A stretch of DNA of 64,000 bases, from positions 3,162,001 to 3,226,000 of the forward strand of contig NZ_JBEGIK010000001.1 in the NCBI RefSeq assembly GCF_040675855.1, given 5' to 3'. Under the pieces are notes generated by a model. That model was not told where the DNA came from. It searched no databases and saw nothing but the letters and a program-made list of their open reading frames with translations. Both the position numbers and the translations under genes were made by a program. Positions 5,003 to 64,000 of the stretch are shown here, one piece after another (positions within the stretch are counted from its first letter, which is position 1; each line of letters begins with the position of its first letter). Origin of the DNA: Microbacterium sp. LWH3-1.2 (GTDB taxonomy: Bacteria > Actinomycetota > Actinomycetes > Actinomycetales > Microbacteriaceae).

Positions 5003-6442
5003 ATGCCCACTGTCCCCTTCACACCCCGGGCGGCGTTCGCGGCGATCGCGCTCAGCGTCGCCTCCCTCGCACTGCTCCAGAACCTGATCATCCCCGTCAT
5101 CCCCCTCATCGCCTCAGACTTCGGCGTGACGGCGGATGCAGCATCCTGGACCAACACGTCGTGGCTCATCGCCGCGGCCGTCGCCACTCCCCTCCTCGGC
5201 CGCACCGGCGACCTCCGCGGTCGCCGCAACACGTTCCTCGCCGTGCTCGCCGTCGTCGCGATCGGCGATGTGGTCGCATCGTTCGCGCCGAACCTCGAGG
5301 TGCTCATCATCGCCCGCGTGCTTCAGGGCGTCGGCGGCGCGCTCTTCCCGCTGGCCTTCGGCCTGCTGCGAGACGTCATGCCGCGCCACCAGCTCACCGG
5401 GGCGATCGGCGCCACGAGCGCCATCATCGGCATCGGCGGCGCAGCGGGCAGCGTGCTCGCAGGCCCCCTCGCCGAGCTCCTCGGCTGGCACGGGATCTTC
5501 GCCGTCCCGTTCGTCGCCGCCGTCGCGGGCATCGTGCTCACGATGATGCTCGTGCCGCCGGCAGGTCTGCGCGCCGTCGGCCGCGTGAACGCGCTCTCCG
5601 CCGTGCTCCTGTCAGGCTGGCTCATCGCGCTCCTCGTTCCGCTCAGCTCGGGTGGGCGCTGGGGCTGGACCTCGCCGCTCACCCTCGCGCTGTTCGCAGC
5701 GGCCGTGGTGCTCATGTTCGGGTGGGTGGTCTCGGAGCTCCGATCGTCGGAGCCGCTCGTCGACCTCCGCCTGATGGCATCCCGGGCCATCTGGCCCGTG
5801 AACGCCGCCGCTCTCCTGATCGGAGCCGCCGCCTTCGGGTTCTGGGGCTACCTCCCCCAGTTCCTCGAGACTCCGGCGAGTTCGGGCTGGGGCCTCGAAC
5901 TCGGCGTGCAGGCCGCCGGGCTGGCGCTGCTCCCCCTCCTCGTCGGCATGTCGAGCGTCGGCTTCGCGACCGGCGCCATCGCCCGTGTCATCCCGCTGCG
6001 GCTCATGATGGCAATCGGCGCGCTGCTCATGGCGGGCGGCGTCGTGTTCGCCGTCCTCGACCACGAGACGCTCGTCACCCTCGCTATCGCCGGCGGCGTG
6101 TTCGGACTCGGCATCGGCCTCGCGTACGCGTCGACGGCGAGCATCATCGTCGAGAGCGTGTCCGCGGACCGCACCGGCATCGCGACCGGCGTCAACGCCA
6201 ATCTGCGCACGATCGGATCAGCGGTCGGCTCCGCCTTCACGACGGCCGTCGTCTTCGGCACGGTCGAGCCCGGCGGCGCGCCCGCGCTCGACGGCTACGC
6301 GGTCGCCTGGCTGACGCTCGCCACCGGGGCGGTCGTCGCCGCGATCCTGGTGCTCACGGTCCGGCCGCGCGGACGGACGGATGCTGCGCCCCCGACCGTT
6401 CCCCAGAACACCGACGAAGCGACGCTGGCCGAGGTCGGCTGA
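5003..6442 (+). CDS. MFS drug-efflux transporter
   Basis: A 479-aa major facilitator protein with about 14 hydrophobic segments, the size and pattern of DHA2-type drug:H+ antiporters. The loop between the second and third segments carries motif A (GRTGDLRGRRN, residues 64-74). GGAAGG lies 6 bases before the ATG. Head-to-head arrangement with tetR and the two operators suggest induction by a transported compound. No substrate can be deduced. A hairpin follows 27 bp after the stop. Confidence 0.9.
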   Translation: MPTVPFTPRAAFAAIALSVASLALLQNLIIPVIPLIASDFGVTADAASWTNTSWLIAAAVATPLLGRTGDLRGRRNTFLAVLAVVAIGDVVASFAPNLEVLIIARVLQGVGGALFPLAFGLLRDVMPRHQLTGAIGATSAIIGIGGAAGSVLAGPLAELLGWHGIFAVPFVAAVAGIVLTMMLVPPAGLRAVGRVNALSAVLLSGWLIALLVPLSSGGRWGWTSPLTLALFAAAVVLMFGWVVSELRSSEPLVDLRLMASRAIWPVNAAALLIGAAAFGFWGYLPQFLETPASSGWGLELGVQAAGLALLPLLVGMSSVGFATGAIARVIPLRLMMAIGALLMAGGVVFAVLDHETLVTLAIAGGVFGLGIGLAYASTASIIVESVSADRTGIATGVNANLRTIGSAVGSAFTTAVVFGTVEPGGAPALDGYAVAWLTLATGAVVAAILVLTVRPRGRTDAAPPTVPQNTDEATLAEVG

Positions 6443-6469
6443 CGCGCGACGGTACGCCCGCTCGACGAC

Positions 6470-6501
6470 GATGCCGCGCCCCCACTCCGGGGCGCGGCAT
6501 C
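6470..6501. terminator. Bidirectional terminator between MFS and gltA
   Basis: A perfect 13-bp stem (6470-6482 with 6489-6501) and 6-base loop lie between convergent genes. On the plus strand it is followed by a short T-containing run. Each arm contains the window-wide word GATGCCGC / GCGGCATC. Confidence 0.75.
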
Positions 6502-6521
6502 CGTCTTTCCTGCGAGTCAGG

Positions 6522-7820
6522 TCAGGACAGACCGGGGTAGTTGCGCTCCTCGGCACCGACGTACAGTTGCTGCGGGCGGCCGATCTTGGTCTGGGGGTCG
6601 CTCGCCGCCTCACGCCACTGCGCGAGCCACCCGGGCAGGCGCCCGATGGCGAACAGCACCGTGAACATGCGGGTCGGGAAGCCCATCGCCTTGTAGATCA
6701 CGCCCGTGTAGAAGTCCACGTTCGGGTACAGGCGGCGGTCCTGGAAGTACGCGTCGTTGAGCGCGATCTCTTCGAGCTCCTTGGCCAGGTCGAGCAGCGG
6801 ATCGCTCACCCCGAGGGCGGAGAGCACCTCGTCAGCGGACTCCTTGACCAGCTTCGCACGCGGGTCGTAGTTCTTGTAGACGCGGTGCCCGAAGCCCATG
6901 AGCTTCACGCCGTCTTCCTTGTTCTTGACCCGTTCGACGAACCGCTGAACGCTCTCGCCGGAGTCGCGGATGCGGGCCAGCATATCGAGCACGGCCTCGT
7001 TCGCGCCGCCGTGCAGCGGGCCGTAGAGCGCATTGATTCCGGCCGAGATCGACGAGAACTGGTTCGCGCCGGTCGAGCCGACGAGGCGGACGGTGGAGGT
7101 GGACGCGTTCTGCTCGTGGTCCTCGTGGAGGATGAGCAGTCGCTCGAGAGCCCGCGACATGACGGGGTCGACGTGATAGACCTCCGACAGGACGCCGAAG
7201 TTGAGCTTCAGGAAGTTGTCCACGAAGCCCAGCGAGTTGTCGGGGTACAGGAATGCCTGGCCGATGCTCTTCTTGTGCGCGTAGGCCGCGATCACCGGGA
7301 GCTTCGCGAGCATCCGGATCGTGTTCAGCTCGACGTGCTCGGGGTTGTTGGGGTCGGACTGGTGCTCGTAATAGGTCGAGAGCGCCGATACGGCCGACGA
7401 CAGCACCGACATCGGGTGCGCGGTGTGCGGCAATGCGGAGAAGAAGCGCTTGAGGTCCTCGTGCAGCAGCGTGTGCCGGCGGATCTTCTCGTCGAATTCG
7501 GCCAGCTGGTCCGCGCTCGGCAGCTCGCCGTAGATGAGCAGCCACGCGACCTCGAGGTACGTGCTGTTCTTCGCGAGCTGCTCGATCGGGTAGCCGCGGT
7601 AGCGCAGCACGCCCTCGTCGCCGTCGATGTACGTGATCGCGGACTTGGTCGCCGCGGTGTTCACGAAGCCGTAGTCGAGAGCCGTGTAGCCGGTCTGGCG
7701 GGTGAGGGTGGAGAGGTCCACGCTCGGTGTGCCGTCGGTGCCCCGCAGGAGCGGGAACTCGGCGGTGCTGTCACCGATCGTGAGGGTGGCCTTCTCCTGC
7801 TGGGTGCCCGCGTCGCTCAC
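6522..7820 (-). CDS. gltA: Citrate synthase
   Basis: This enzyme condenses oxaloacetate and acetyl-CoA to citrate, entering the TCA cycle. The 432-aa length fits the type II (hexameric) bacterial form. The catalytic triad is visible: His270 in LHGGANEA, His312 in MGFGHRVYKNYDPRA and Asp369 in NVDFYTGV. Single-gene unit between the terminator at 6470-6501 and dapC. Upstream on the minus strand a TAGGCT -10-like hexamer (7942-7947) is present with only a weak -35, so the promoter assignment is tentative. Confidence 0.98.
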   Translation of the reverse strand: MSDAGTQQEKATLTIGDSTAEFPLLRGTDGTPSVDLSTLTRQTGYTALDYGFVNTAATKSAITYIDGDEGVLRYRGYPIEQLAKNSTYLEVAWLLIYGELPSADQLAEFDEKIRRHTLLHEDLKRFFSALPHTAHPMSVLSSAVSALSTYYEHQSDPNNPEHVELNTIRMLAKLPVIAAYAHKKSIGQAFLYPDNSLGFVDNFLKLNFGVLSEVYHVDPVMSRALERLLILHEDHEQNASTSTVRLVGSTGANQFSSISAGINALYGPLHGGANEAVLDMLARIRDSGESVQRFVERVKNKEDGVKLMGFGHRVYKNYDPRAKLVKESADEVLSALGVSDPLLDLAKELEEIALNDAYFQDRRLYPNVDFYTGVIYKAMGFPTRMFTVLFAIGRLPGWLAQWREAASDPQTKIGRPQQLYVGAEERNYPGLS

Positions 7821-11077: not shown

Positions 11078-11128
11078 ACGGATGCCGCGGCCCTGCGCCT
11101 TCGCAGGGCGCGGGGTCGCGGCATCCGT
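11078..11128 (-). terminator. Terminator hairpin after typA
   Basis: Just after the typA stop an outer 12-bp stem (11078-11089 with 11117-11128) encloses a second hairpin (CGCAGGGC pairing with GCCCTGCG). The outer arms are ACGGATGCCGCG and its complement, an inverted pair of the window-wide word. Confidence 0.75.
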
Positions 11129-11135
11129 TCCAGGA

Positions 11136-13049
<1,914 letters not shown>

Positions 13050-21255: not shown

Positions 21256-21545
21256 CGGCTCGCGGATGCCCGTGGCCGCAGCATCCGTCCCCGCTCCTGC
21301 CCGCCCTCACCCACAGCTGTTCCCGCCGCCCCGCCGGCCGCCTCCCCGCGAGACTTCGACGGCGCGCCGAGACTGCTGTCCCCCATCGACGTCTCGGTGC
21401 GCAGATGACGTCTCGCGGCGATCTGTGGACGGCGTGGCGAAGGCATCGCGGCGCGCGTCCTCCACAGCGACGCTGATGCGTGGGTTGTGCAGCGATGGGA
21501 CGGATGCCGCGTCACGACGTGGTGCGAAGGGAGCACGCTGGGTCG
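21256..21545. other. Gap after CPBP gene: weak hairpin and palindromic element
   Basis: This 290-bp gap holds a 7-bp inverted pair CGGATGC/GCATCCG (21263-21287), which may act as a weak terminator, then the 67-bp element listed separately at 21349-21415. The remainder is GC-rich sequence with no gene or obvious promoter that I can support. Confidence 0.6.
21349..21415. repeat. 67-bp imperfect palindrome, copy A
   Basis: The element begins CGAGACTTCGACGG and ends GATGACGTCTCG, and can fold on itself with mismatches. A same-length relative (copy B) lies at 22578-22644; the two share ends, internal CGGTGCGC and length, and together flank one gene. The layout resembles REP or MITE-like palindromes. 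No transposase is nearby. Confidence 0.65.
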
Positions 21546-22758: not shown

Positions 22759-25650
22759 TCAGGCGAAGGCCTCGATCGGCGGGCAGGCGCACACGAGGTT
22801 GCGGTCGCCGTAGGCCTGGTCGATGCGGCGGACCGGGGGCCAGTACTTCGTGCGGACCAGCGTGTGCACCGGGTACACGGCGGTCTCCCGCGAGTAGGGG
22901 TGCTCCCACGAGCCCGAGACCGCGGACTCGGCGGTGTGCGGTGCGTTCACGAGCGGGTTGTCGTCCTGCGGCCACTCCCCCGCGCCGACGCGGTCGGCCT
23001 CGGCCTTGATGGCGATCATCGCCTCGATGAAGCGCTCGATCTCGGGGAGGTCCTCGGACTCCGTCGGCTCGACCATGAGCGTGCCCGCGACGGGGAACGA
23101 CATCGTCGGGGCGTGGAAGCCGTAGTCGATGAGACGCTTGGCGACGTCGTCGACCGAGACCCCGGTCGCCTCCTTGAGCGGACGCAGGTCGAGGATGCAC
23201 TCGTGGGCGACGAGTCCGTCCTCGCCGGTGTAGAGAACCGGGTAGTGGTCGCGCAGGCGCACGGCGATGTAGTTCGCGGCGAGCACCGCGGCCGCCGTCG
23301 CACTGCGCAGTCCTTCGGCGCCCATCATCCGGACGTACGCCCAAGAGATCGGAAGGATGCCGGCCGATCCATGCGGTGCGGCCGAGATGGGGCCGCCGTC
23401 GAAGACGCCGCCCGCGTGGTCCTTTCGCTGCGACAGCGGGTGCGAGGGCAGGTAGGGCGCGAGGTGCGCCTTCGCCGCCACCGGGCCGACGCCGGGGCCG
23501 CCCCCGCCGTGCGGGATGGCGAACGTCTTGTGCAGATTCAGGTGCGAGACGTCGCCGCCCAGGTCGCCGAAGCGCGCGTAGCCGAGGAGTGCGTTGAGGT
23601 TCGCGCCATCGACGTACACCTGACCGCCGGCGTCGTGCACGGCCTGCGTGATGTCGAGCACGTCGTGCTCGTAGACCCCGTGCGTCGACGGGTACGTGAT
23701 CATGAGCGCCGCGAGCTCGTCGGCGTGCGCCGCGATCTTCGCGCGCAGATCGCCGAGGTCGACGTTGCCGGCCTCGTCGCACGCGACCACGACGACGCGC
23801 ATGCCCGCGAGCACGGCGGACGCCGCGTTCGTGCCGTGCGCGGACGACGGGATGAGGCACACCGTGCGAGCGTGATCGCCGTTCGCGCGGTGGTAGCCCC
23901 GGATCGCCATGAGTCCCGCGAGCTCGCCCTGCGAACCGGCGTTGGGCTGCAGCGACACCGCGTCGTACCCGGTGACCTCGGCGAGCCACACCTCGAGCTG
24001 CTCGATCATCGCGAGGTAGCCGCGCACGTCGTCCTCGGGCGCGAACGGGTGCACGCGCGAGAACTCGGGCCACGACACGGCGGCCATCTCGGTCGCCGCG
24101 TTGAGCTTCATGGTGCACGAGCCCAGCGGGATCATGCCGCGATCCAGCGCGTAGTCGCGGTCGGAGAGCTGCTTGAGGTAGCGCATCATCGCCGTCTCGG
24201 AGCGGTGCGAGTTGAACACCGGGTGTGTGAGGAATTCCTCGACGCGGTGCAGCCCCGACGGCACACCCGCCAGGGGTGCAGCATCCGCGAAGGCAAGCAC
24301 GCGTTCGCCCTGCTCCCCCGCACCGAGGAATTCGTGCTCGGGCAGTCCGAAGGCCCACGCGACGGCGGCGAGGTCGGCGGCGGTCGTCGTCTCGTCGACC
24401 GAGACGCCGACCGTCGCGTCGTCCACCCAGAACAGCTGGTAGCCGCGCTCGCGGGCGCGCTCGATCACGCGGCGCGACGCACCGGGCGTCGCGACGCGGA
24501 TGGTGTCGAAGAACGAGTCGGAGCGCAGCGGGAGTCCGTACGAGCGCAGCCGATCGGCGAGCGCCTCCGCCTTCTTCGCGACGTCGGTCGCGATCGCACG
24601 CAGCCCGTCGGGTCCGTGGTACACCGCGTACATCGAGGCCATGACGGCCAGCAGCACCTGCGACGTGCAGATGTTCGACGTGGCCTTCTCACGGCGGATG
24701 TGCTGCTCGCGCGTCTGCAGGGCGAGGCGGTACGCGGGGTGGCCGGCGGCGTCCTGCGAGACGCCGACGAGGCGCCCGGGCAGCTGACGCTCCAGTCCCT
24801 GGCGCACCGCCATGTAGCCGGCGTGCGGGCCGCCGAAGCCGAGCGGCACGCCGAAGCGCTGCGTCGTGCCCACGGCGACGTCTGCGCCGAGCGAGCCGGG
24901 CGAGCGCAGCAGCGTGAGCGCGAGGAGGTCGGCCGCGACCACGACGAGGCCCCCGGCCACGTGGGCAGCGTCGACCACTCCGGCCGGGTCCCACACGTTG
25001 CCCGACGCGCCCGGATACTGCACGAGCACGCCGAACAGCTCGTCGGGAAGGATCGCGCCCCGGGCGAGGTCGAGTTCGACGAGCTCGATGCCGACGGCGG
25101 CCGCGCGGTGCGCGAGGAGCGCCTTCGTCTGCGGCAGCGCGTCGGCGTCGACCACGAACACGTTCGACGCCGCCTTCGACGCACGCCGGGCCACCAGCAT
25201 GCCCTCGACGACGGCGGTCGACTCATCGAGCATCGAGGCGTTCGCCGTCGCGAGCCCGGTGAGGTCGGTCACCATCGTCTGGAAGTTGATGAGCGCCTCG
25301 AGGCGTCCCTGCGAGATCTCGGGCTGGTACGGCGTGTAAGCGGTGTACCAGGAGGGGTTCTCCAGCACGTTGCGCGCGATCACCGATGGCGTGAGCGTGT
25401 CGTAGTATCCCAGCCCGATCATCGCGCGCGCCGTGCGGTTCTGCGACGCCAGCACGCGGAGCTCGGCGAGCGCCTCGGCCTCGGTCGCCGCGGGTGGGAT
25501 GTCGCTCGTCGCGCGAGGCTTGGCATGGATGGATGCCGGGACCGCCGCCTCGACGAGCGCGTCGACGCTGTCGTATCCCAGCGCGTCGAGCATCGTGCGC
25601 TGGGCCGCAGCATCCGTCCCGATGTGACGGTCGGCGAACAGACCCGTCAT
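22759..25650 (-). CDS. gcvP: Glycine dehydrogenase (decarboxylating), P protein
   Basis: The PLP enzyme of the glycine cleavage system, decarboxylating glycine and passing the aminomethyl group to lipoyl-GcvH. The 963-aa single-chain form is full length. It begins with the family N-terminus [21 protein letters not shown], and the PLP lysine lies in [16 protein letters not shown] at about residue 708. It is the last gene of gcvT-gcvH-gcvP and overlaps gcvH by 4 bp. Expression should follow the glycine riboswitch upstream of gcvT. Confidence 0.98.
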
Positions 25651-27518: not shown

Positions 27519-28694
27519 TCAGCCGACGCAGTCGCCGGACGACACACGATCGGTCGCGGCGCCCGCGAGCTCGGCGACGGGCTCGAGCTCCTTCATCGTC
27601 ATCGCGTAGCCGAGGTTCTCGTCGTTCTCGGCGCGCGCGAACACGACACCGGCGACCTCCCCGTCGGCTGTGAGGACGGGGCCTCCGGAGTTGCCGGGGC
27701 GCACCACGGAGTGGAGTGAGTAGATCTCGCGCGGATTCGTCGTCCGGTCGTAGATGTCGGGGATCATGGCCGTGCCGGTGTCGCGCACCGATGCGCTCGT
27801 CATCGTGAACGGGCCGCCGAAAGGATAGCCCTGCACAGCAGCCGAGCTGCCCGCCGCAAGGGTCTCGGCGCGCCGGAGCGGCGTGGCGCCCAGATCCTCG
27901 ACCGCGATCACTGCGAGGTCGACGACCTCGTCGAAGTAGACGATCCGCCCCTCGCGCGCCGGCCGCCCCGGCAGTTCGACCAGAGGCAGATCGACGCCCG
28001 CCACGACATGCGCGTTGGTCACGATCCGGTCGGGCGCGATGACGAAGCCCGACCCGGTCGCTCCCCGCCCGCACGCATAGGCGGTGCCTGAGACGCGCGC
28101 GACGGATGCCGCGGCCGTTGCCAGCTCGGGATCATCCAGGGCGACCGGCGGCGCGGTCGGCCTCACCCTCGCGGGTCCGAGAAGCTCACCCAGGCGCGGG
28201 ATGCCGTCTGCGAGGAACGACGATCTCAGCTCGGCCAGTGCCGCCTCGACGGGTGGCGGGACGACCGTCTTGATCGCGTTGACCACGTACGACGAGCCCA
28301 CCGCGGCGGACACGCCCGGAATGCCCGCCATCACCAGCGGCGGCGCAACCAGCGCGAGCGCCAGTGCGGCCGCGATCACCGACGCGATGCCCCCGAGGAA
28401 TCGCTCGGCCCATCGGAGCTTCAGGCGGTCGGCCCCGGAACGCAGCAGGGAACCGAGCCAGGCCCCGAGCGCACCTCCGCCGAAGAGCAGCCCGAGCACC
28501 GTGGCGATCACCGCCACCGTCCGCCACGCCGGGGACGGCACCAGGTTGCTCACCAGCGGCGCCAGCCACGATGCCGCGAATGCGCCGGCCGCGAGGCCGG
28601 CCAGCGTTCCGATACTCGCGAAGAAACCGCGACGGATTCCCGTGATGAGCGCCAGAACGAGGACGAGGACGATGATGACGTCGAAGACGATCAT
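27519..28694 (-). CDS. marP: MarP-family membrane serine protease (acid resistance)
   Basis: A 391-aa protein with four N-terminal membrane helices of CvpA type (from residue 1 to about 155) and a periplasmic trypsin-like domain. The catalytic triad is His229 (TNAHVV), Asp259 (VVDLAV) and Ser336 (RPGNSGGPV). Cys208 and Cys389 correspond to the disulfide pair that activates Mycobacterium tuberculosis MarP (Rv3671c). MarP protects against acid and cell-wall stress by processing a peptidoglycan hydrolase in mycobacteria; the same role here is inferred. It stands alone upstream of the glycine riboswitch. Confidence 0.92.
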   Translation of the reverse strand: MIVFDVIIVLVLVLALITGIRRGFFASIGTLAGLAAGAFAASWLAPLVSNLVPSPAWRTVAVIATVLGLLFGGGALGAWLGSLLRSGADRLKLRWAERFLGGIASVIAAALALALVAPPLVMAGIPGVSAAVGSSYVVNAIKTVVPPPVEAALAELRSSFLADGIPRLGELLGPARVRPTAPPVALDDPELATAAASVARVSGTAYACGRGATGSGFVIAPDRIVTNAHVVAGVDLPLVELPGRPAREGRIVYFDEVVDLAVIAVEDLGATPLRRAETLAAGSSAAVQGYPFGGPFTMTSASVRDTGTAMIPDIYDRTTNPREIYSLHSVVRPGNSGGPVLTADGEVAGVVFARAENDENLGYAMTMKELEPVAELAGAATDRVSSGDCVG

Positions 28695-29859: not shown

Positions 29860-31212
29860 ATGTCTGCCGTGAACATCACTCTCCAGCCCCGCCGCGAACT
29901 GGATGCCTCGGTCGATCACGCCATCCAGGCGATCGTCGCCGGCGCGGCGGTCGGCGAGACGTGCAACACAGACCTCGCCGCCGGTCCGTGGGACTTCGAC
30001 ACGCGGCCCGGGTACGGCCCGGGCTCGTCGATGGGCGACGTCATCCCTACCGGGTCGCCCCGCCAGGGTGAGCTGCCGCGCGAGTACCGCGAGGCGTCCG
30101 AGGCCGAACTCGACGAGCGCATCCGCGCCGCGAAGGCGACCCTGGGCGACCGGGTCGTCGTCCTGGGGCACTTCTACCAGCGGGAAGAGGTCGTGGTCCA
30201 TGCCGACTACGTGGGCGACTCGTTCCAACTCGCGAACGCGGCGCTCGAGCACCCCGACGCCGAAGCCATCGTGTTCTGCGGCGTGCACTTCATGGCCGAG
30301 ACCGCCGACCTGCTGTCGGGTCCCGAGCAGGCCGTGATCCTCCCGAACCTCGCGGCCGGCTGCTCGATGGCAGACATGGCCGACATCGATCAGGTCGAGG
30401 AGTGCTGGGAGCAGCTCGCCGACGTCTACGGCGACATGGACCAGGCGGATGCTGACGGCCTCGTGCCCGTCATTCCCGTCACGTACATGAACTCCTCGGC
30501 CGCGATCAAGGGCTTCGTCGGACGCCACGGCGGCATCGTGTGCACGTCGTCGAACGCGCGGACGGTCCTCGAGTGGGCGTTCCAGCGCGGACGGCGCGTG
30601 CTGTTCTTCCCCGACCAGCACCTCGGCCGCAACACGGCGAAGGCGATGGGCGTGCCGCTCGAGCAGATGCCGATGTGGAATCCGCGCAAGCCGCTGGGCG
30701 GAGCATCCGTCCACCAGCTCGCCGATGCCCGGGTGATCCTCTGGCACGGCTTCTGCTCGGTGCACCGCCGCTTCTCGGTCGACCAGATCGACAAGGCCCG
30801 TGCGGAGCACCCGGGCGTGCGGGTGATCGTGCACCCCGAATGCCCGATGGAGGTCGTCGACGCCGCCGACGAAGCAGGCTCGACCGATTACATCCGCAAG
30901 GCGATCGAGGCCGCCTCCGGGCCCACGACGTTCGCGATCGGCACCGAGGTGAACCTCGTGCAGCGACTCGCTGCCGACCATCCGCAGCACACGATCTTCT
31001 GCCTCGACCCGGTGGTGTGCCCCTGCTCGACGATGTACCGCATCCACCCGGGTTACCTCGCGTGGGTGCTCGAGGGTCTCGTCGCGGGCGAGGTGCGCAA
31101 CCGCATCACCGTGCCGGCCGCCGTGGCGGACCCGGCACGGGTGGCTCTGGAGCGGATGTTGGCGGCCAAGCCTCCGGCAGCGCCTGCTGCCGCATGGGAG
31201 AACGCCTCATGA
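29860..31212 (+). CDS. nadA: Quinolinate synthase
   Basis: NadA condenses iminoaspartate with dihydroxyacetone phosphate to quinolinate using an oxygen-sensitive 4Fe-4S cluster. The ATG at 29860 is chosen because GGAG lies nine bases before it and it follows nrtR by 22 bp; the open frame extends far upstream through nrtR. The 450-aa product has cluster cysteines in VFCGVHFMAE (about 140), HPECPMEV (about 328) and the CLDPVVCPCSTM segment (about 380-390). The stop overlaps nadB by 4 bp. Confidence 0.97.
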   Translation: MSAVNITLQPRRELDASVDHAIQAIVAGAAVGETCNTDLAAGPWDFDTRPGYGPGSSMGDVIPTGSPRQGELPREYREASEAELDERIRAAKATLGDRVVVLGHFYQREEVVVHADYVGDSFQLANAALEHPDAEAIVFCGVHFMAETADLLSGPEQAVILPNLAAGCSMADMADIDQVEECWEQLADVYGDMDQADADGLVPVIPVTYMNSSAAIKGFVGRHGGIVCTSSNARTVLEWAFQRGRRVLFFPDQHLGRNTAKAMGVPLEQMPMWNPRKPLGGASVHQLADARVILWHGFCSVHRRFSVDQIDKARAEHPGVRVIVHPECPMEVVDAADEAGSTDYIRKAIEAASGPTTFAIGTEVNLVQRLAADHPQHTIFCLDPVVCPCSTMYRIHPGYLAWVLEGLVAGEVRNRITVPAAVADPARVALERMLAAKPPAAPAAAWENAS

Positions 31213-40007: not shown

Positions 40008-40610
40008 ATGATCGTGAGCACTCCGGACCCCGACGGGGCGACCGGCCACGTCGCCGAGATGTACGAAGGTGACATTCGCGGAGACGGCTTCGTCTTCGGA
40101 CACACGCGCGCGATGGCGATCAACCCCGAGGCTCACGCGGCCTTCGAGACGTTGGTCCGGGCGATCGTGCCGTCGATCGGGCTCCGTAACTACGAGCTGG
40201 CGACGCTCGGTGCCGCGCGCGCGATCGGGTCGGATCACTGCCTCCTCGCGCACGGCCGCAAGACTCTTCGGGCGGGCCTGCTCGATGAGGACGAGCTCGC
40301 CCGGCTCGCGCGGGAGGGCGCAGACGCCGGCCTCGATGAGACGGACATGGCCGTGGTCGCGTACGCCGAGAAGCTCTCGACGGATGCTGCCGCCATGACC
40401 GATGCCGACACGCATCGTCTGCGCGATCTCGGCTTCACCGATCGGCAGATCGTCGACATCACGCTCGCCGCCGCGGTGCGAAACTACTTCAGCCGCGCGC
40501 TGCTCGCCCTGGCGGTGCCGGTCGACGACGTGCCCGGCCTCAGTCCCGATCTGGTCGCAGCTCTGCTCGCGCCGGCTCAGGCCGCGCGCGGCGACGTCAG
40601 TGATGGATGA
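40008..40610 (+). CDS. Carboxymuconolactone decarboxylase/AhpD-like protein
   Basis: A 200-aa helical protein with the AhpD-fold signature SDHCLLAHG (one Cys followed by His), as in peroxidase-related CMD proteins, rather than the CxxC of true AhpD. GGGAAGG lies seven bases before the ATG at 40008; the long open frame upstream is antiphase to the MFS gene. A terminator separates it from the MFS gene. A role in peroxide or organic-radical handling is plausible but unproven. Its last 14 bp overlap the convergent membrane-protein gene. Confidence 0.85.
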   Translation: MIVSTPDPDGATGHVAEMYEGDIRGDGFVFGHTRAMAINPEAHAAFETLVRAIVPSIGLRNYELATLGAARAIGSDHCLLAHGRKTLRAGLLDEDELARLAREGADAGLDETDMAVVAYAEKLSTDAAAMTDADTHRLRDLGFTDRQIVDITLAAAVRNYFSRALLALAVPVDDVPGLSPDLVAALLAPAQAARGDVSDG

Positions 40611-41315: not shown

Positions 41316-42143
41316 TCAAAGGGGCACTCCCCCGTTCTGACAGGTCGGGCAGTACTGCGCGGACGTTCCCGAGAACGTCAGGTCGCGGATCGTGTCACCG
41401 CACACCGGACACGCCTCGCCCGTGCGTCCGTGCACGCGCATCGCCGCGACCTTCTGCGCCTTGAGCTGGTGGATCGGCACGCCGAGCCGGGCATCGATCG
41501 CCCCGCGTACCGTCGACAGCGTCGCATCGAACAGCCGGTCGGCGGCGTCCTCGTCGAGCACGGCCGCACGGGTCACCGGCGACACCTTAGCGATGTGCAG
41601 GATCTCGTCGGAATAGGCGTTGCCGATCCCGGCGAGGGATTCCTGCTCCTGCAGGATCGCCTTGATCTGCTTGTGTCGTCCGCCCAGTGCGGCATCGAAC
41701 CGGTCGCGCGTGAAGGCAGGATCCGCCGGATCCGGCCCGAGCTTCGCGATCGCGGGCACCTCGTCCGCGTCGCTGACCACGAACAGCCCGAGCGACACCC
41801 AGCTGCCGGCATCCGTCACGTCCAGGCCACTCTCGCCAGACAGCTCGAACGTCGCAAGCGCCGGTGGCGCGTCGGCGGCAGGCGTGAGGGGCTCGGTATC
41901 CCGCCATCGCATCCATCCGTGACGGCCGAGCGACACGACGAGGCTCGCCCCGTCGAGCATGAGCTCCACGTGTTTGCCATGGCGACGCGCGTCGGTGACG
42001 GTGCGCCCGATGATGCTCGTCGGAGGTGCCGCACGCGTCTTGACGGTGCGGAACTCGAGCACGTCGACTCCACGGATCTCGCGACCGGATGCCTCCTCAG
42101 CGAGGAACCGCGCGAGAGCCTCGACCTCCGGCGACTCAGGCAT
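41316..42143 (-). CDS. Fpg/Nei-family DNA glycosylase/AP lyase
   Basis: A 275-aa base-excision repair enzyme. It starts PESPEVEAL after the initiator Met: Pro2 is the catalytic nucleophile and Glu3 is conserved, with Ser4 where Fpg usually has Leu. HGKHVELML supplies the conserved Lys region, QEQESLAGIGNAYSDEIL the H2TH motif, and CPVC...YCPTCQ a C-terminal zinc finger. The zinc-finger tip departs from the Fpg consensus (no CQR), so a Nei-like or mycobacterial Nei2-type specificity is possible. It heads a likely operon with the micropeptide and membrane protein. Confidence 0.9.
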   Translation of the reverse strand: MPESPEVEALARFLAEEASGREIRGVDVLEFRTVKTRAAPPTSIIGRTVTDARRHGKHVELMLDGASLVVSLGRHGWMRWRDTEPLTPAADAPPALATFELSGESGLDVTDAGSWVSLGLFVVSDADEVPAIAKLGPDPADPAFTRDRFDAALGGRHKQIKAILQEQESLAGIGNAYSDEILHIAKVSPVTRAAVLDEDAADRLFDATLSTVRGAIDARLGVPIHQLKAQKVAAMRVHGRTGEACPVCGDTIRDLTFSGTSAQYCPTCQNGGVPL

Positions 42144-43577: not shown

Positions 43578-43827
43578 GTACTCCAGCCTGCGCGACTGTC
43601 CGCCAACCGCCCACGACGTTGCGGGCGCCGGACGGACGTGCTAACGGATGCTGCGCGCGGCGCCGTCGGGTGAGCCGCCGCGCTCGCCCTGCGGGTCGAG
43701 CCCTAGGCAAGGGCCCTGCGGCTCGCTGAAGCGAAGCCGGCGCGCGGGCTCGAGCAGGAGACGAGCCTCAACGAGACAGATCGTGCGGCGATGCGCTATC
43801 TGCTCGAGCGGTCTTAGGCTGACTCGG

Positions 43828-44580
43828 ATGCGGGAGTTCATCGGAGGGATCGGTCTGCTCGGCCGCGGCTTCGCGCACTGGCGACGCCGGCCGGGTCTCA
43901 TGGCGCTCGGCCTCGTCCCCGCCGCGATCGTCGGCCTGCTGTTCCTCGGCGGGCTCGTCGCGCTGAGCGCCTCGCTCCCCGCCCTCACCGAGGCGATGAC
44001 GCCGTTCGCCGACGGCTGGCCGGGCGTCTGGGCCACGGTCCTCCGCGTCGCGGTGGGCACGGCACTGCTCGGTGCCGCCCTCGTCCTGGTCGCCGTCTCG
44101 TTCACGGCCCTCACGCTGCTGGTGGGCGACCCGTTCTACGAGCGGATCTGGAGGGCAGTCGAGACGGATGCCGGGTCCCCGCAGTTCGCCGGCGACTACG
44201 GGTTCTGGCGCTCCGTCGCGGATGGCCTCTCGCTCATCGCACGGGGCCTCGGCGTCGCCCTGGTCGCCGCGCTGCTCGGGTTGATCCCGGTCGTCGGCGG
44301 CGTGGTGAGCACCCTCTTCGCGGTGGTCTTCACCGGCTGGCTGATCGCCGACGAGCTGAGCTCCCGCGCGCTGACAGCCCGCGGACTCGACCGCAGCGCG
44401 CGCAAACGACTGCTGCGCCGCAGGCGCGCCCGCGTCCTCGGGTTCGGCGTCGCGACGCAGCTCTGCTTCCTGGTGCCGCTCGGCGCGGTCGCGACCATGC
44501 CGGCGGCCGTGGCCGGGGCCGCGCTGCTCGCGCGGTCGCTGCTCGATCCCGCCCCCACGGCGGCGCAGGCTCGAGCGTGA
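43828..44580 (+). CDS. EI24/CysZ-like membrane protein
   Basis: A 250-aa protein with an amphipathic start (MREFIGGIGLLGRGFAHW) and about four membrane helices. The pattern, with GDPFYERIWRAVE between hydrophobic halves and the following GLGVALVAALLGLIPVVGGVV, matches the EI24 domain (DUF540/CysZ superfamily). The frame is open 60 codons upstream but codon use there is poor. In enterobacteria CysZ takes up sulfate; transport is not shown for the actinobacterial group. Confidence 0.82.
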   Translation: MREFIGGIGLLGRGFAHWRRRPGLMALGLVPAAIVGLLFLGGLVALSASLPALTEAMTPFADGWPGVWATVLRVAVGTALLGAALVLVAVSFTALTLLVGDPFYERIWRAVETDAGSPQFAGDYGFWRSVADGLSLIARGLGVALVAALLGLIPVVGGVVSTLFAVVFTGWLIADELSSRALTARGLDRSARKRLLRRRRARVLGFGVATQLCFLVPLGAVATMPAAVAGAALLARSLLDPAPTAAQARA

Positions 44581-44608
44581 CCTGGCGGCCGGCGACGCCG
44601 CATCCGTG

Positions 44609-45947: not shown

Positions 45948-46712
45948 ATGGACGACCCGGAGCTGGGGCTCGTACTCGGAGGCGGGGGCGCGTTCGGCGC
46001 CGCCCACGTCGGTGTGCTGCAGGTGCTGGCCGAGCGAGGCATCCGTCCCGGCATCGCGACCGGGACGAGCTCGGGGGCCCTCGTCGCGGCCGCGTACGCC
46101 GCAGGTCTGGAGCTGCACACCATCGAGCGCGCCGCCCGCGCCTTCCACTGGAGCGCCATCGCGCGCTGGTCGCTGACCCCCCGGTGGGGCCTGCTCGACA
46201 CCTCTGCCATCGTCGATGCCGTCCCGCGCGCCCTCGGCGAGGACCCGCCCATCGAGCGGCTCCCGCGCCGCTTCGCCGCCTACGCCACCGATCTGCGCAC
46301 CCGCCGCGGGATCATCCTCGACGAGGGACCGCTCAGCGCCGCCCTCCGCGCGACGGTCGCAGTACCGGGACTCCTCCCCCCGATCCGCCGCGGCGATGCG
46401 CTGCTCGCGGACGGCGGCATGACCGACAACGTCCCGGTCGCCGCCGCGCGCGCCCTCGGCGCCACGCGCGTGATCGTGGTGCGGCTGCACGCGAAGTGGG
46501 AGAACGTCCGCATGATGCGCACCGTCACCCGGACCGCGGATCTCGTGGCCGACCCGTCGGTCGTGCTGATCCAGCCCGAGATGGAGGGCATGGCCCAGTG
46601 GCGAATGACCGATGTGCCGCGTCTGATCGAAGAGGGGCGCCGCGCGGCGATGGCGGCATTGGATGCTGCGTCCCTCCGCAGGCGGGCAACCGGCAGCGTC
46701 GCGTCGAACTGA
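45948..46712 (+). CDS. Patatin-like phospholipase (RssA family)
   Basis: A 254-aa protein with the patatin elements: oxyanion loop LGGGGAFGAAHVGVL (residues 10-24), nucleophile elbow GTSSG with the catalytic Ser, and the Asp of the Ser-Asp dyad in LLADGGMTDNVP. GGAGG lies six bases before the second of two adjacent ATGs. It probably deacylates phospholipids or lipid-like esters. Divergent from the aminotransferase gene, with 154 bp between starts. Confidence 0.92.
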   Translation: MDDPELGLVLGGGGAFGAAHVGVLQVLAERGIRPGIATGTSSGALVAAAYAAGLELHTIERAARAFHWSAIARWSLTPRWGLLDTSAIVDAVPRALGEDPPIERLPRRFAAYATDLRTRRGIILDEGPLSAALRATVAVPGLLPPIRRGDALLADGGMTDNVPVAAARALGATRVIVVRLHAKWENVRMMRTVTRTADLVADPSVVLIQPEMEGMAQWRMTDVPRLIEEGRRAAMAALDAASLRRRATGSVASN

Positions 46713-50696: not shown

Positions 50697-51770
50697 TCAG
50701 ACGTTGAAGCGGAACTCGACGACGTCGCCGTCCTGCATGACGTAGTCCTTGCCTTCGAGGCGGGCCTTGCCCTTCGAGCGTGCCTCCACCACCGAGCCTG
50801 TCGCCACGAGGTCGTCGAACGAGATGACCTCGGCCTTGATGAAGCCCTTCTCGAAGTCGGTGTGGATCACGCCGGCCGCCTGCGGGGCCTTCCAGCCCTT
50901 GCCGATGGTCCAGGCGCGCGCCTCCTTCGGGCCGGCCGTCAGGTACGTCTGGAGGCCCAGCGTGTCGAAGCCGATCCGTGCCAGCTGGTCGAGACCCGAT
51001 TCGTCCTGACCCGTCGACGCCAGCAGCTCCGCCGCGTCCTCGGGGTCGAGGTCGATGAGCTCGGACTCGATCTTCGCGTCGAGGAACACTGCCTTGGCCG
51101 GAGCGACCAGCGCCTCGAGCGACGCCTTCTTCGCAGCATCCGTCAGAACCGCCTCGTCGACGTTGAAGACGAAGATGAACGGCTTCGCGGTGAGAAGGCC
51201 GAGTTCCTTGATCGGCGCCAGGTCGATGCCCGAGGCCGACAGCAGCACGCCGCGCTCGAGGGCGTCCTTCGCCTCGACGGCGGCCGCGAGCACCGAGGGA
51301 TCGAGCTTCTTGCCCTTGACCTCCTTCTCGTACCGCGTGATCGCCTTCTCCAGCGTCTCGAGGTCGGCGAGCTGAAGCTCGGCGTTGATGGTCTCCATGT
51401 CGCTCTGCGGGTCGACCGCGCCGTCGACGTGCACGACGTCGTCGTCATCGAAGCCACGCACGACCTGGGCGATGGCGTCGGCCTCGCGGATGTTCGCGAG
51501 GAACTTGTTGCCCAGGCCCTCGCCCTCGCTCGCGCCGCGGACGATGCCGGCGATGTCGACGAACGACACCGCGGCCGGCAGGATCCGCTCGGAGTGGAAG
51601 ATCTCGGCGAGCTTCCCGAGTCGCGGGTCGGGAAGGTTGACCACGCCGATGTTGGGCTCGATCGTCGCGAACGGGTAGTTCGCCGCGAGCACCTGGTTCT
51701 TGGTCAGGGCGTTGAAGAGGGTCGACTTGCCGACATTCGGGAGACCGACGATTCCGATGGTGAGAGCCAC
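50697..51770 (-). CDS. ychF: Redox-regulated ATPase/GTPase YchF (OLA1 family)
   Basis: A 357-aa P-loop protein of the Obg-related YchF/OLA1 group, binding ATP and ribosomes. G1 is GLPNVGKST near the N-terminus, then [20 protein letters not shown] (G3 region), NVDE in the G4 position in place of NKxD, and a C-terminal TGS domain ending [11 protein letters not shown]. Starting at GTG 51770 gives the usual (M)ALTIGIVG; an ATG two codons earlier is possible. It lies 24 bp before the hydrolase-fold gene on the same strand, so the two may be cotranscribed. Confidence 0.95.
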
Positions 51771-51792
51771 GGGCATCCAGTCTAGGTGCGGA

Positions 51793-51817
51793 CGGATGCT
51801 GCTCACTGCGGCATCCG
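51793..51817 (-). terminator. Weak hairpin upstream of ychF
   Basis: A 7-bp inverted pair CGGATGC/GCATCCG with an 11-base loop lies between the dihydrofolate-reductase-like gene and ychF, both on the minus strand. It may end the upstream transcript. Confidence 0.4.
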
Positions 51818-53219: not shown

Positions 53220-53978
53220 TCAGGGACGGATGCCGCGATACGCGTGCGTCAGATACGGCAGGTCCACGACCTCGTCCCCGGTGACCTCGGTGATGCGTCG
53301 CTCGTCGAACAGCGCGCTCACAGCGGCCAGGATCGCCGCGCGGTGAGCATCGGACGCGGTGATGACATAGCTGCGCGAGGCGACCATGTCGAGCAGCGCC
53401 GCCCGCGTGAGGGAGCGGGTCCAGGTCCACGACCGGCGCTCGAGCGCATCGAACGGATCCGCCACGCGCGGCCCGTCGCCTCCGAGTATCTCCTCGGCGT
53501 GGCTGCCGTGCATCGCCGCGGAGAGGCGCGCGACCCACGGATCGGATCCGTCGCGGGTGTTCCACACGAGCCCGAGCACGCCGCCCTGGCGGAGCGCTCG
53601 CCCGACCTCGGCGGAGGCGGTGACCGGGTCGACCCAGTGCCACGCCTGCCCGAGGAGCACCGCGTCGACGCAGGCGTCGGGAAGCGGCATCCGTTCCGCC
53701 GTCCCCACGAAGGTGGGAACGCCGTGGACGTGCTCGCGGAGTGCGGCCAGCATGTCGGCATCGGGGTCGATCGCGACGACCTCGGCCCCTGCCTCGACGA
53801 TGGTGCGGGTGAGCTTGCCCGTGCCCGCGCCGACATCGGCCGCGCGTAGGGCGCGTCCGGGCTCGCGCACCGGAGCGAGCATCCAATCCACGGCCTCGCG
53901 CGGATAGCCGGGCCTGCCCGACTCGTACGCGCCTGCGGCCGCCCCGAACGACAGCGACATCTCCTCGCGACTGGCCAT
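53220..53978 (-). CDS. Class I SAM-dependent methyltransferase
   Basis: A 252-aa protein unrelated in detail to its convergent neighbour. It starts with SLSFGAAAGAYESGRPGYP, then motif I AADVGAGTGKLTRTIV, EVVAIDPDADML and GTAERMPLPDACVDAVLLGQAWHWVD, the pattern of UbiE/COQ5-like or generic Methyltransf_11 enzymes acting on small molecules. ATG at 53978; Met7 is an alternative. Substrate unknown. Confidence 0.88.
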   Translation of the reverse strand: MASREEMSLSFGAAAGAYESGRPGYPREAVDWMLAPVREPGRALRAADVGAGTGKLTRTIVEAGAEVVAIDPDADMLAALREHVHGVPTFVGTAERMPLPDACVDAVLLGQAWHWVDPVTASAEVGRALRQGGVLGLVWNTRDGSDPWVARLSAAMHGSHAEEILGGDGPRVADPFDALERRSWTWTRSLTRAALLDMVASRSYVITASDAHRAAILAAVSALFDERRITEVTGDEVVDLPYLTHAYRGIRP

Positions 53979-54657: not shown

Positions 54658-54721
54658 CCCGGAAACGGATGCTGCGGCCCGCCGCCGCGGCGATGTCCGA
54701 GGCATCCGGCACCCTGGAGCC

Positions 54722-57413: not shown

Positions 57414-57604
57414 GCGGTCAGCCTATGCCAGCATTGCGCCCGAATCACGGGAATTTCATGCACTGGAACGCAAAGGAATGTCCTTTCTTTCCAATGGTGC
57501 AGGGACGCGGGTTTCCCGCGAGAGGCCGGACGGCAGCATCCGTTCCCTCATCCGGCGCTTGGGTAGAGTTTGCGGTGACGCCCACTCGATCAAAGGGAGC
57601 ACTC

Positions 57605-58636: not shown

Positions 58637-58654
58637 GCGGCGGATTCGACGGAT

Positions 58655-58688
58655 GCCTCGGCACCGGCCTCGCGGCCGGCGCCGGGGC
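58655..58688 (+). terminator. Terminator hairpin after fbaA
   Basis: Arms 58655-58669 and 58674-58688 pair with one mismatch around loop TCGC, 18 bp after the fbaA stop. It ends seven bases before the convergent MOSC gene. Confidence 0.7.
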
Positions 58689-60530: not shown

Positions 60531-60548
60531 CCATCACCTCCCGCAGGA

Positions 60549-60667: not shown

Positions 60668-61234
60668 TCAGAGTCGCGTGCTGTCGAGGAGCGCCTGCCA
60701 GACGGCGGGGTCGTTCGTCAGGGGCGCGACCATGAGCGCGCCGGCCGTCAGTGAGAAGACGATGCCTCCCGCCAGCGGGATCCACCACGAGATCCGCGAG
60801 CGGCGCATGTTCCAGACCGACAGTGCCGTCGTCAGGCACCAGCCGATCGTCAGGACGACGGCGGCCGCGATCGCCCACGGTCTTCCGGCGGCGGGGTCCG
60901 AGAGCTGCGTGTCGACGCCCATCAGACCGAGCATCGTCTCGGCGTACGTGCCGTAGTCGAGGAAGGCCGGCACCGACGTGATCACGTTCACCAGGCCGTA
61001 CGCCAGCAGCGCGAACGTGATGATGCGGTCGACCGGGTGCTGACGCTTCTCCGCGACGACGGGAGCGGAGGGGATGCCGCCGGCCGGCGCATCCGTCACG
61101 ATCGGCGCGACCGGCTCCTGCCGGGGCGCCGGCTCCCGGATGCGCGCGCGCTGCTCCTCGGGCGTCGCGTACTCGCCGTACTGGGGACGCGGACGGGAGC
61201 GCGGGTCGGGCTCGGCGTTCGCGGCGTCGCTCAT
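60668..61234 (-). CDS. DUF6264-like membrane protein
   Basis: A 188-aa protein with a long Pro/Arg-rich cytoplasmic N-terminus ([21 protein letters not shown] is the key patch) and four membrane helices between about 72 and 180. It resembles small uncharacterised Microbacteriaceae membrane proteins. Its ATG overlaps the ispH stop by 4 bp, so it is translated with ispH. The reason for that coupling is unknown. Confidence 0.75.
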
Positions 61235-62322: not shown

Positions 62323-62728
62323 CCCTCGATTCTACGGGCGGGCTCCAGAGCGGGGCCTCCGACGGGGAGCCCGCGCGAGGGCACGAAGGGAATCTCGATT
62401 GACTTGTCAAGCGGTGATCGGCGTGGCGGGCGGTGATTCCTGATGGAAGGTCGTGCCGTCTCGCAGGAGCGCCCGGGTCACGTCGATGCGTCGGCGGGCG
62501 AGGGCGAGGACGGCCTGCGTGCGGCTTCTCCTCTCGCGGCGGTTCCGGTCGTCGGAGGCGCGGGAAGCGGGATGGGAGCGGGCGGCGACTTCGGCGGCGG
62601 GACACCGGGCGGCCCACCCTTTCCAGCCGTCAGAACGGCAACCACATGTCCAGCCATGCGCGGCATCGCCGGAGCGGTCAGAAACCGACGACGCTCCCGA
62701 AACCACACATCAGCAGAGTAAGGACCGC
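62323..62728. other. Gap between ispH and xseA with transposase relic
   Basis: A 406-bp divergent gap. It must hold the promoters of ispH (minus) and xseA (plus), neither of which I can place with confidence. The centre is occupied by the IS110-type relic listed at 62407-62574. Plus-strand open frames here are short and unconvincing. Confidence 0.6.
62407..62574 (-). pseudogene. Decayed C-terminus of an IS110-family transposase
   Basis: Minus-strand translation gives HPASRASDDRNRRERRSRTQ then AVLALARRRIDVTRALLRDG and TTFHQESPPA before a TGA. This matches the typical IS110/IS116/IS902 tail (DPASRAYYDRKR...KRHTQALLALARRR..VL.ALLRDG). Upstream residues look only faintly related, and no catalytic DEDD domain, complete element or flanking repeat is present. 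Confidence 0.7.
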
Positions 62729-64000
62729 ATGACGAGTTTCCAGCCTGCCGCCGTCCCCGGCGAGCCACCGCCTCCCGACTCGGTGCCGCCGCGCGACTCG
62801 ACGGCACAGGCGCCCACGTCCGTGGCTCGTCTGAACGACACGATCCGCGGGTTCGTCCAGACATGGGGATCGGTGTGGGTCGAGGGCGAGATCACCGGGT
62901 GGAACCAGCGGGGCGGAAACGTGTTCGGTCGTTTGAGAGACCTGGTGACCGATGCCACGATCTCCTTCCGCATCTGGTCGTCGACGCGCGATCGGCTGCC
63001 CGACGACCTCAAGGTGGGCGATCACGTCATCGCGTGCGTCAAGGCCGACTACTTCGTGAAGAACGGCGACTTCAGCTTCGGAGTCTCGGCGATGCGTCAC
63101 GTGGGACTCGGAGACCAGCTGGAGAAGCTCGAGCGCCTGCGCGTGCAGCTGCGGTCCGAGGGGCTCTTCGATCCGTCCCGCAAGAAGCCGCTCCCCTTCC
63201 TGCCCCACCTCATCGGTCTCATCACCGGTGAGAACTCGGATGCCGAGAAGGACGTCCACCGCAACGCCGAGCTGCGCTGGCCGCAGGTGCGCTTCCAGAC
63301 GAAGTACGCCGCGGTGCAGGGCGACAGGTGCGTCCCCGAGACGATCGCGGCGTTGAAGGCGCTGGATGCCGCACCCGATGTCGACGTCATCATCATCGCT
63401 CGAGGTGGCGGCGACCCTCAGACTCTGCTGGGCTTCAGCGATGAGCGCCTGATCCGCGCGGTCGCCGCGACATCCACTCCCGTCGTGAGCGCCATCGGCC
63501 ACGAGAACGACCATCCGCTCCTCGACGACGTCGCCGACCTGCGGGCATCGACCCCGACCGACGCGGCGAAGCGCGTCGTGCCGGATGTCGCAGAGCAGCG
63601 CGCGCTGGTCGGGCAGTTGCGCGCGCGCATGACCCTGCGGCTCACGCAGCGCCTCTCGCACGACATCGCCCAGCTCGAGCAGCTGCGCTCGCGCCCGGTG
63701 CTGCGCGCCCCCGAGACGCTGCTCACCACGCGCTCGCACGAGGTCGAGCTGCTCGTCGCCCGCGGGCGCGACCGGATCGACCGGTCGCTTCGCGTGCAGG
63801 ACCAGCGCACCGCAGAACTCCGCGCAACGCTCCGCGCGCTCTCGCCGGCATCGACGCTCGCTCGCGGCTACGCCATCGCGCATCTCGCCGACGGCGTGAT
63901 CGTGCGCGACGCGGCCCAGGCTCCGGCATCCACTTCCGTCGTCGTCACCGTGGGGCGCGGATCGTTCGCCGCTCGCTCCGATGGGGAGATCACCGAGGGT
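62729..64000 (+). CDS. xseA: Exodeoxyribonuclease VII large subunit (3' end outside window)
   Basis: The first 424 residues of XseA. It has an OB-fold N-terminal domain (VWVEGEITGWNQRGGNVFGRLRD in parts), then the catalytic domain with LIGLITGENSDAEKDV, VDVIIIARGGGDPQTLLGFSDE and VVSAIGHENDHPLLDDVAD, and a coiled-coil region. With XseB (expected downstream) it degrades single-stranded DNA. AAGGA precedes the ATG. The N-terminus has about 30 Pro-rich residues before the OB fold. Confidence 0.95.
   Translation, partial: MTSFQPAAVPGEPPPPDSVPPRDSTAQAPTSVARLNDTIRGFVQTWGSVWVEGEITGWNQRGGNVFGRLRDLVTDATISFRIWSSTRDRLPDDLKVGDHVIACVKADYFVKNGDFSFGVSAMRHVGLGDQLEKLERLRVQLRSEGLFDPSRKKPLPFLPHLIGLITGENSDAEKDVHRNAELRWPQVRFQTKYAAVQGDRCVPETIAALKALDAAPDVDVIIIARGGGDPQTLLGFSDERLIRAVAATSTPVVSAIGHENDHPLLDDVADLRASTPTDAAKRVVPDVAEQRALVGQLRARMTLRLTQRLSHDIAQLEQLRSRPVLRAPETLLTTRSHEVELLVARGRDRIDRSLRVQDQRTAELRATLRALSPASTLARGYAIAHLADGVIVRDAAQAPASTSVVVTVGRGSFAARSDGEITEG

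Follow-up and report, generated by a model that had tools for sequence, protein, structure and literature searches.

An octamer of Microbacterium, with variants in many Microbacteriaceae, that resembles a DNA uptake sequence

The chromosome of Microbacterium sp. LWH3-1.2 (Microbacteriaceae) carries many copies of a short, non-palindromic octamer, ACGGATGC, which we analyzed starting from one window, the stretch of 64,000 nucleotides at C1:3162001-3226000 of the 3,936,381-base assembly (G000). The word is genuine, occurs throughout the genome, is maintained and reaches family level; how abundant it is, how it is oriented and placed and how its copies pair all match an uptake sequence. We consider it moderately probable from these features that ACGGATGC, in its fuller form gACGGATGCyGCgnCC, is a DNA uptake sequence. 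A preliminary description of the window had named uptake sequences among the known words with such behavior; this reading is supported by lineage dialects, facing pairs on the stop side of genes, conservation of sites, ComEC and a second Tad locus. The function itself is inferred, as are an uptake preference, its receptor, molecular drive, a terminator function of some copies and a role for ComEA.

An exact recount of the window gave 12 ACGGATGC and 13 GCATCCGT, 25 copies in all, in agreement with the preliminary description, whereas 100 dinucleotide shuffles predicted 4.1 and stayed below 25 every time. The enrichment claimed there thus stands, although in the window it is about sixfold and not the roughly tenfold obtained with an expectation of 2. 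Five of its 14 example coordinates were exact and nine were off by 1-4 bases (6373 is 6377, 31718 is 31722 and 21498 is 21500), and its counts for the core GGATGC/GCATCC (60 and 48, with 43 expected) were too low, since we found 65 and 60, with 58-60 expected under Markov models of order 1-2. The extended form that it called common, ACGGATGCyGC, is present in 18 of the 25 copies.

Over the whole genome, ACGGATGC occurs 1749 times (879 and 870 copies in the two orientations), compared with 45 (27 + 18) for a reversed-letter control, so the enrichment holds in the rest of the chromosome. Statistics on 228 copies were drawn from a 444-kb sample consisting of 19 stretches of 20 kb and the window. 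In this sample ACGGATGC tops the excess among octamers with at least 20 copies under Markov models of order 2, 3 and 4, and the fuller form given above is the consensus over the 228 aligned copies. For the window, models of order 1-4 predicted 4.4-5.4 copies on both strands, order 5 predicted 11.9 and order 6 predicted 18.8; for the 228 copies of the sample, the expectations were 31 (order 3), 40 (order 4), 96 (order 5) and 178 (order 6). A similar count from an order 5-6 model had been named in advance as a refutation, and order 6 comes near the count. Because models of these orders are fitted on the word's own six- and seven-letter pieces, we did not take the near-match as a refutation.

Genes were called with a simple codon-usage caller written for this analysis, which placed 153 of the 228 copies within genes, 70 between genes and 5 at edges, consistent with the described occurrence in coding and non-coding DNA. 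Codon usage does not explain the genic copies: shuffling of synonymous codons within genes left 21.1 copies (standard deviation 4.1, maximum 33 in 200 runs) against the 153 observed. The word is carried by 70 of the 119 Thr-Asp-Ala tripeptides and by 48 of the 122 Ala-Ser-Val tripeptides, where dicodon usage predicts 21.8 and 16.6, respectively. As had been noticed earlier, GAT is forced against the preference for GAC; the ratio of GAT to GAC is 1398:6599 overall and 78:41 within Thr-Asp-Ala. The tripeptide Thr-Asp-Ala is itself in excess (119 compared with 77 predicted from dipeptides, the other five orders of the same residues numbering 45-69), and the word therefore seems to reach into protein sequence.

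The copies in the window, with retention in aligned relatives given for the seven words that lie in genes from 19 to 44 kb, are as follows.

6377..6384, plus strand: inside the major facilitator superfamily transporter gene 5003-6442 (plus)
6497..6504, minus strand: intergenic, 17 bp past the stop of the citrate synthase gene (6522-7820, minus)
11078..11085 (plus) and 11121..11128 (minus): facing pair forming a hairpin, 7 bp past the TypA/BipA stop (11136-13049, minus)
21281..21288, minus strand: intergenic by the gene calls made here
21500..21507, plus strand: intergenic by the gene calls made here
25610..25617, minus strand: gcvP (22759-25650, minus), Thr-Asp-Ala frame; exact in 18 of 23 aligned relatives
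28102..28109, plus strand: gene 27519-28694 (minus), Ala-Ser-Val frame; exact in 21 of 25
30703..30710, minus strand: nadA (29869-31212, plus); exact in 10 of 33
31722..31729, plus strand: nadB (31194-32906, plus); exact in 7 of 27
32652..32659, minus strand: nadB; exact in 17 of 32
40380..40387, plus strand: gene 40008-40610 (plus); exact in 10 of 17
41809..41816, minus strand: gene 41316-42143 (minus); exact in 11 of 20
43644..43651, plus strand: intergenic
44164..44171, plus strand: gene 43828-44580 (plus)
44600..44607, minus strand: intergenic, 19 bp past the stop of one of two convergent genes and 1 bp from that of its neighbor
46039..46046, minus strand: gene 45945-46712 (plus)
51136..51143, minus strand: gene 50697-51776 (minus)
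51792..51799, plus strand: intergenic
53226..53233, plus strand: gene 53220-53978 (minus)
53687..53694, minus strand: gene 53220-53978 (minus)
54665..54672, plus strand: intergenic, 7 bp past a stop
57536..57543, minus strand: intergenic
58649..58656, plus strand: intergenic, 12 bp past a stop
61089..61096, minus strand: gene 60668-61234 (minus)

The orthologs came from 33 related loci (31 labelled Microbacterium and two Microbacteriaceae), with alignments below 55% identity left out; NadB of the window is 89% identical to NadB of M. ureisolvens HU12. For the seven genic words, the exact word was found at 94 of 177 aligned orthologous sites. Where the amino acid was conserved, GAT was retained in 52 of 65 cases inside words compared with 440 of 1371 outside, and GCA in 58 of 73 compared with 247 of 1277. 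Rare codons are thus retained inside words, so that either selection or biased replacement maintains the word. At the nadA site 30703-30710, where the window has GCATCCGT, 3 of the 33 relatives have TCGGATGC, in which the core is inverted, as though a new word had formed there on the opposite strand.

Copies are about threefold denser between genes (1.205 per kb) than within them (0.396 per kb), the 70 intergenic copies comparing with 3.4-5.7 expected. Intergenic copies tend to lie nearer a stop than a start (43 of 69, 33 of the 43 within 50 bp, compared with 3216 of 7332 controls; P 0.003). Among adjacent copies at most 60 bp apart, 11 pairs face each other (1.7 expected, Poisson P 2e-6), one is back-to-back and two are on the same strand. 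Seven of the facing pairs lie within 30 bp past a stop, two are inside genes and two belong to one tandem array, which also holds 7 of the 70 intergenic copies. This intergenic array (L010:18300-19200; G000:C1:1738300-1739200) consists of units of ~163 bp with facing word pairs and GTTCGGGGCGCACGG repeats. The pair at 11078-11128 folds at -53 kcal/mol, 8.4 standard deviations below shuffles, and two further pairs reached 6.7 and 7.6 standard deviations, so that strong hairpins were found in all three pairs folded. Paired copies past genes were probably recruited as transcription terminators. That the word is a terminator arm or another gene-end signal and nothing else, as the facing pairs and the proximity to stop codons might be taken to indicate, is extremely improbable; only 22 of the 228 copies stand in close facing pairs, four of them inside genes, and the 153 genic copies refute such a signal as the sole function.

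The word extends through the family in the form of dialects. In a survey of 398 family genomes from 85 genera, ACGGATGC copies numbered between 4, in an assembly of 59% completeness, and 2406; of the 85 genus representatives, 48 exceeded five times the control count plus 5, and 13 fell below twice the control. In a survey of 296 genomes of the phylum, ACGGATGCNGC, the only word sought there, rose above background only in four family members, the 292 genomes outside the family having at most 46 copies on both strands, a background level. Relatives often favor variants, among them CGGATGCCG, GGATGCCG, GGATGCGC and CGGATGCG. We compared the six top octamers of each of 35 family genomes, sampled at 40-80 kb each, with a core-enrichment threshold of 1.7 that was set after the data were seen. 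GGATGC words were among these octamers in 20 genomes and GGATCC words in three more, so that comparison with relatives, which the preliminary description had proposed for other Microbacterium genomes, found words with one of these cores in 23 of the 35. In three genomes, G034 (L068-L070), G047 (L071-L073) and G164 (L116-L118), GGATCC reached 2.6-3.9 times its expectation and GGATGC 0.6-0.8 times; G164 belongs to the same genus as the window and has the core GGATCC instead of GGATGC. G035 and G379 have GGAGGC words instead of either core. Other words in strong excess in the sample were GGAGGCGCGG in G035 (L031-L034; 33 compared with 1.4 expected), CTGGAGGC in G379 (L107-L109; 19 compared with 2.6, 14 of the 19 being intergenic) and ACACCGAT in G010 (L043-L046; 27 compared with 3.2), which are possibly unrelated dialects or repeats. 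Intergenic repeats on CTACTCAACCAGC and GTTTCGA were seen in G180 (L110-L112), with heptamers at 11-17 copies in 60 kb.

Segregation motifs and Chi sites had also been named as possible readings, with strand bias relative to origin and terminus as a check. The leading-to-lagging ratio of ACGGATGC is 127:101 with the origin at dnaA (P 0.10) and 117:111 (P 0.74) with alternative switch points that were picked from the polar word GGGGGAG itself; the word is balanced by either count. In the same stretches GGGGGAG is polar, at 103:21 with dnaA at 0.836 Mb as the origin and 114:10 when the switches are placed near 0.43 and 2.63 Mb. Because the genome has this polar word while ACGGATGC is balanced at origin and terminus, we rejected ACGGATGC as a segregation word of the kind represented by FtsK-orienting polar sequences (KOPS) and architecture-imparting sequences (AIMS). 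GGGGGAG is a candidate segregation word of FtsK/AIMS type, judging by its polarity. It was found as GGGGGAG(T) at window positions 838, 8666, 22974, 27192, 41326, 48894 and 59283 and genome-wide in L001-L019, and its switch on the origin side seems to be displaced from dnaA by 0.3-0.5 Mb.

A Chi site of the RecBCD type was rejected on the lack of a leading-strand bias and on a search for RecC (PF04257), which found it in none of 48 genomes and, among 14 controls, in E. coli; other end-processing enzymes were not searched for. A Chi-type recombination hotspot might instead be read by a non-RecBCD helicase-nuclease, AdnAB or AddAB (neither was searched for in the genomes), and accumulate by protecting or recombining DNA, and the genome-wide excess, the conservation at orthologous sites and the lineage dialects would fit such a hotspot too. 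We regard it as rather unlikely, given that the replication-strand bias and RecC are absent, that intergenic density and facing pairs are unexpected for Chi, and that a literature search combining Chi sequence, Actinobacteria and AdnAB gave no match.

Competence and pilus genes, also proposed earlier as a check, are present in the window genome as ComEC, a type IV pilus (T4P) locus and two tad loci. ComEC was found in 388 of the 398 family genomes and, being near-universal, was dropped as a discriminator of word-rich genomes. The T4P locus at 2.33-2.34 Mb (L013:11400-20000 and L210:1-1976; G000:C1:2331400-2341976) contains pilins and PilD-, PilM-, PilN-, PilO-, PilT-, PilC- and PilB-like genes; PilB is lacking in 7 of 9 sampled members of Microbacterium. 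One tad locus, at 3.60 Mb, has a fused TadB/C and a Flp pilin with an EY processing site, and the other, at 3.08-3.09 Mb, has TadB and TadC as separate proteins, and its pilins carry EF sites. In Micrococcus luteus, both tad loci are reported to be needed for transformation (Angelov 2015, PMC4322843).

The number of Tad loci went along with word abundance. Among 24 word-rich and 24 word-poor genomes, hand-picked from the extremes of copy number, at least two TadE matches were found in 22 of the former and 8 of the latter (Fisher P 6e-5), with a cut chosen after the table was seen and with statistics that, as in all our Tad comparisons of related genomes, ignore kinship. Three of the eight word-poor genomes with at least two TadE matches were G164 and G034, both with the GGATCC core, and G166, from the genus of G034 and outside the 35-genome sample. 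TadA of the second locus (TadA-2) was present in 246 of 349 genomes. Word-density tests used one genome per genus (85) out of the 349 to 398 searched, and in genus representatives of at least 2 Mb the median was 148 words per Mb with TadA-2 compared with 58 without it (P 0.0004). Within genus g46, G331 has TadA-2 and 890 copies, and G045, G116, G171, G221, G263 and G301, which are not among the 246, have 68-165 copies.

Several observations weigh against an uptake sequence. Besides the disregard of kinship and the late choice of the TadE cut, the Tad association has exceptions: genus g12 is word-rich (G205, 1575 copies) without TadA-2 and without the T4P PilB, among genus representatives TadA-2 is missing from 4 of the 29 that are word-rich and present in 15 of the 27 that are word-poor, and many small-genome members possess ComEC and TadA-2 with few copies. 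None of the pili tested is strictly required. In 30 sampled genomes every T4P-positive one seemed to have a word, a hint that held only in part (P 0.011 in the 85 genus representatives and 0.28 in the 72 of at least 2 Mb). PilB was found in 21 of 29 word-rich and 11 of 27 word-poor genus representatives (P 0.03); since it separates word density weakly and word-rich genera without PilB exist, T4P was dropped as a required uptake machine. The combination "Tad-2 or T4P", devised after the data were seen, gave 23 of 28 compared with 2 of 7. The Tad-2 association has g12 and the word-poor exceptions against it, and that of T4P is weaker; we therefore put the Tad pilus forward as the likeliest carrier of a receptor. 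Further, neither core was among the top octamers in 12 of the 35 sampled genomes, GC content correlates with word count (Spearman 0.67), intergenic density is not raised in some relatives (3 of 45 copies in G053 with 7% intergenic DNA, and 14 of 141 in G106 with 11%), and transformation of any member of the Microbacteriaceae was not found in the literature searched.

DNA poor in the word gave mixed results: the scarcity of ACGGATGC in low-GC stretches and phages speaks for an uptake sequence, whereas the excess of GGATGCCG in them and the fall of CGAGCAGC in the stretches speak against one. Among the first 100 forward copies, the six longest intervals from one copy to the next were taken as a low-word set of 157 kb with a GC content of 0.65-0.69.

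L234-L242, G000, between C1:67001 and C1:423000: nine low-GC stretches

These stretches hold 4 reverse copies compared with 34.7 at the genome rate; about 5 ACGGATGC per strand are expected from their own composition, so the word stands at chance level there. GGATGCCG is raised in them (51 compared with 16.4 expected, 3.1-fold), as is CGGATGCC (31 compared with 16.4), and an unrelated frequent word, CGAGCAGC, drops likewise, from 523 to 172 per Mb; the stretches therefore differ in several words. They are putative recent acquisitions and may be DNA of relatives with the GGATGCCG dialect, or may differ in composition only. Ten proteins from two of the nine stretches belong to accessory metabolism, and with no phage or conjugation genes among them we rejected a prophage or conjugative element. 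In five Microbacterium phages (189 kb) there were 5 ACGGATGC compared with 9.4 expected, and GGATGCCG is raised in four of the five.

These stretches and phages bear on a bias of mutation or repair, or a methylation system, without uptake function. The precedent is the highly iterated palindrome HIP1 of cyanobacteria, an octamer for which such an origin has been proposed and which is linked to orphan methyltransferases (PMC4390886). This origin is very unlikely for ACGGATGC. A bias on all DNA should also affect the low-GC stretches and the phages, where ACGGATGC is not enriched, although GGATGCCG is. None of the 24 one-letter neighbors of ACGGATGC combines a high expected count with a near-absence of copies, and they give no clear sign of directed mutation. 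A palindrome of HIP1 type was rejected, the word being non-palindromic and D12-type adenine methyltransferases (PF02086) being found in none of three word-rich genomes, where other methyltransferase families were not searched for.

The balanced orientation and the wide spread of the word would also suit non-polar binding by a chromosomal protein (nucleoid-associated, an SMC loader, or one of repair or replication) that serves genome organization and not uptake, and the exception of g12 to the pilus association leaves room for it. A site of this kind would have to account for the core switch within a genus (G164) and for the pairing past stops, and the copies are spread unevenly, with a variance of 8.9 and a mean of 5.2 per 10 kb; we judge it unlikely.

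Taking the word as an uptake sequence, we propose the following mechanism. A receptor on the competence machinery would prefer DNA that carries the word; it would probably be a minor pilin of a two-locus Tad/Flp pilus that feeds ComEA/ComEC. Uptake and recombination would then involve same-lineage DNA more frequently, and molecular drive would spread the word to ~1,750 places, at a cost in rare codons and some amino-acid changes. Drift of the receptor between lineages would give rise to the dialects around GGATGC and GGATCC. More tentatively, with a chance that we put somewhat below even, the Microbacteriaceae may have an independently evolved uptake-sequence system in which a two-locus Tad/Flp pilus reads lineage-specific GGATGC/GGATCC dialects, with a switch inside the genus of the window as a possible barrier to gene exchange and with the low-GC stretches, rich in GGATGCCG and not in ACGGATGC, coming from relatives of another dialect.

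To our knowledge, there are no established groups with uptake words besides the Pasteurellaceae and the Neisseriaceae. If true, the system proposed here would be the first in Gram-positive bacteria within the literature searched. No such word in Actinobacteria was found in that literature at the level of titles and abstract starts among the matches listed, "DNA uptake sequence" combined with Microbacterium gave no match in a literature mostly without subscription papers, and among the matches listed for the letters of ACGGATGC none was related by title.

Uptake words have been reported in Pasteurellaceae and Neisseriaceae (PMC1939737). The DNA uptake sequences (DUS) of Neisseriaceae form inverted pairs at terminators and have dialects with a shared core (Frye 2013, PMC3630211). 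ACGGATGC resembles them (PMC3630211) in being a short word repeated on the order of thousands of times, inside genes as well as between them, in its inverted pairs at putative terminators and in apparent dialects that share a core within one family. It differs in its sequence, in its high-GC Gram-positive hosts and in a receptor that is only proposed, compared with one of ComP type; moreover, its better correlate is Tad pili and not T4P, and its role in uptake is proposed from sequence. As with the uptake signal sequences (USS) of Pasteurellaceae (PMC12616744, PMC7811141), which bias a bacterium toward DNA of its own kind, the word is genome-wide; sequence and organisms are unrelated, and the effect on uptake was measured for USS, whereas here it is predicted from sequence. 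The Flp/Tad competence of M. luteus (PMC4322843) shares the same two tad architectures, a likeness judged by architecture only, and involves comEA/comEC, with ComEC here; in contrast to Microbacterium, M. luteus comes without mention of an uptake word, the term "uptake sequence" occurring 0 times in the main text of either PMC4322843 or PMC8467076. Like ACGGATGC, HIP1 (PMC4390886) is a highly iterated octamer over a whole clade; unlike ACGGATGC, it is palindromic and tied to methyltransferases.

If the uptake reading is true, actinobacterial dialects would make a long-standing question testable, namely whether such words are selected as a means of recognizing mates or merely follow from a bias of the receptor, and a further uptake system with a different pilus would be available for finding receptors. 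It would also predict which Microbacteriaceae are transformable and with which DNA, helping the genetics of a little-developed group, and the core switch within a genus would serve as a natural experiment on receptor evolution.

Apart from the word, the window contains a partial rRNA operon at 1-2651 on the minus strand, with 16S at 1130-2651 and the start of 23S at 1-686, and a glycine riboswitch at 27380-27476, also on the minus strand.

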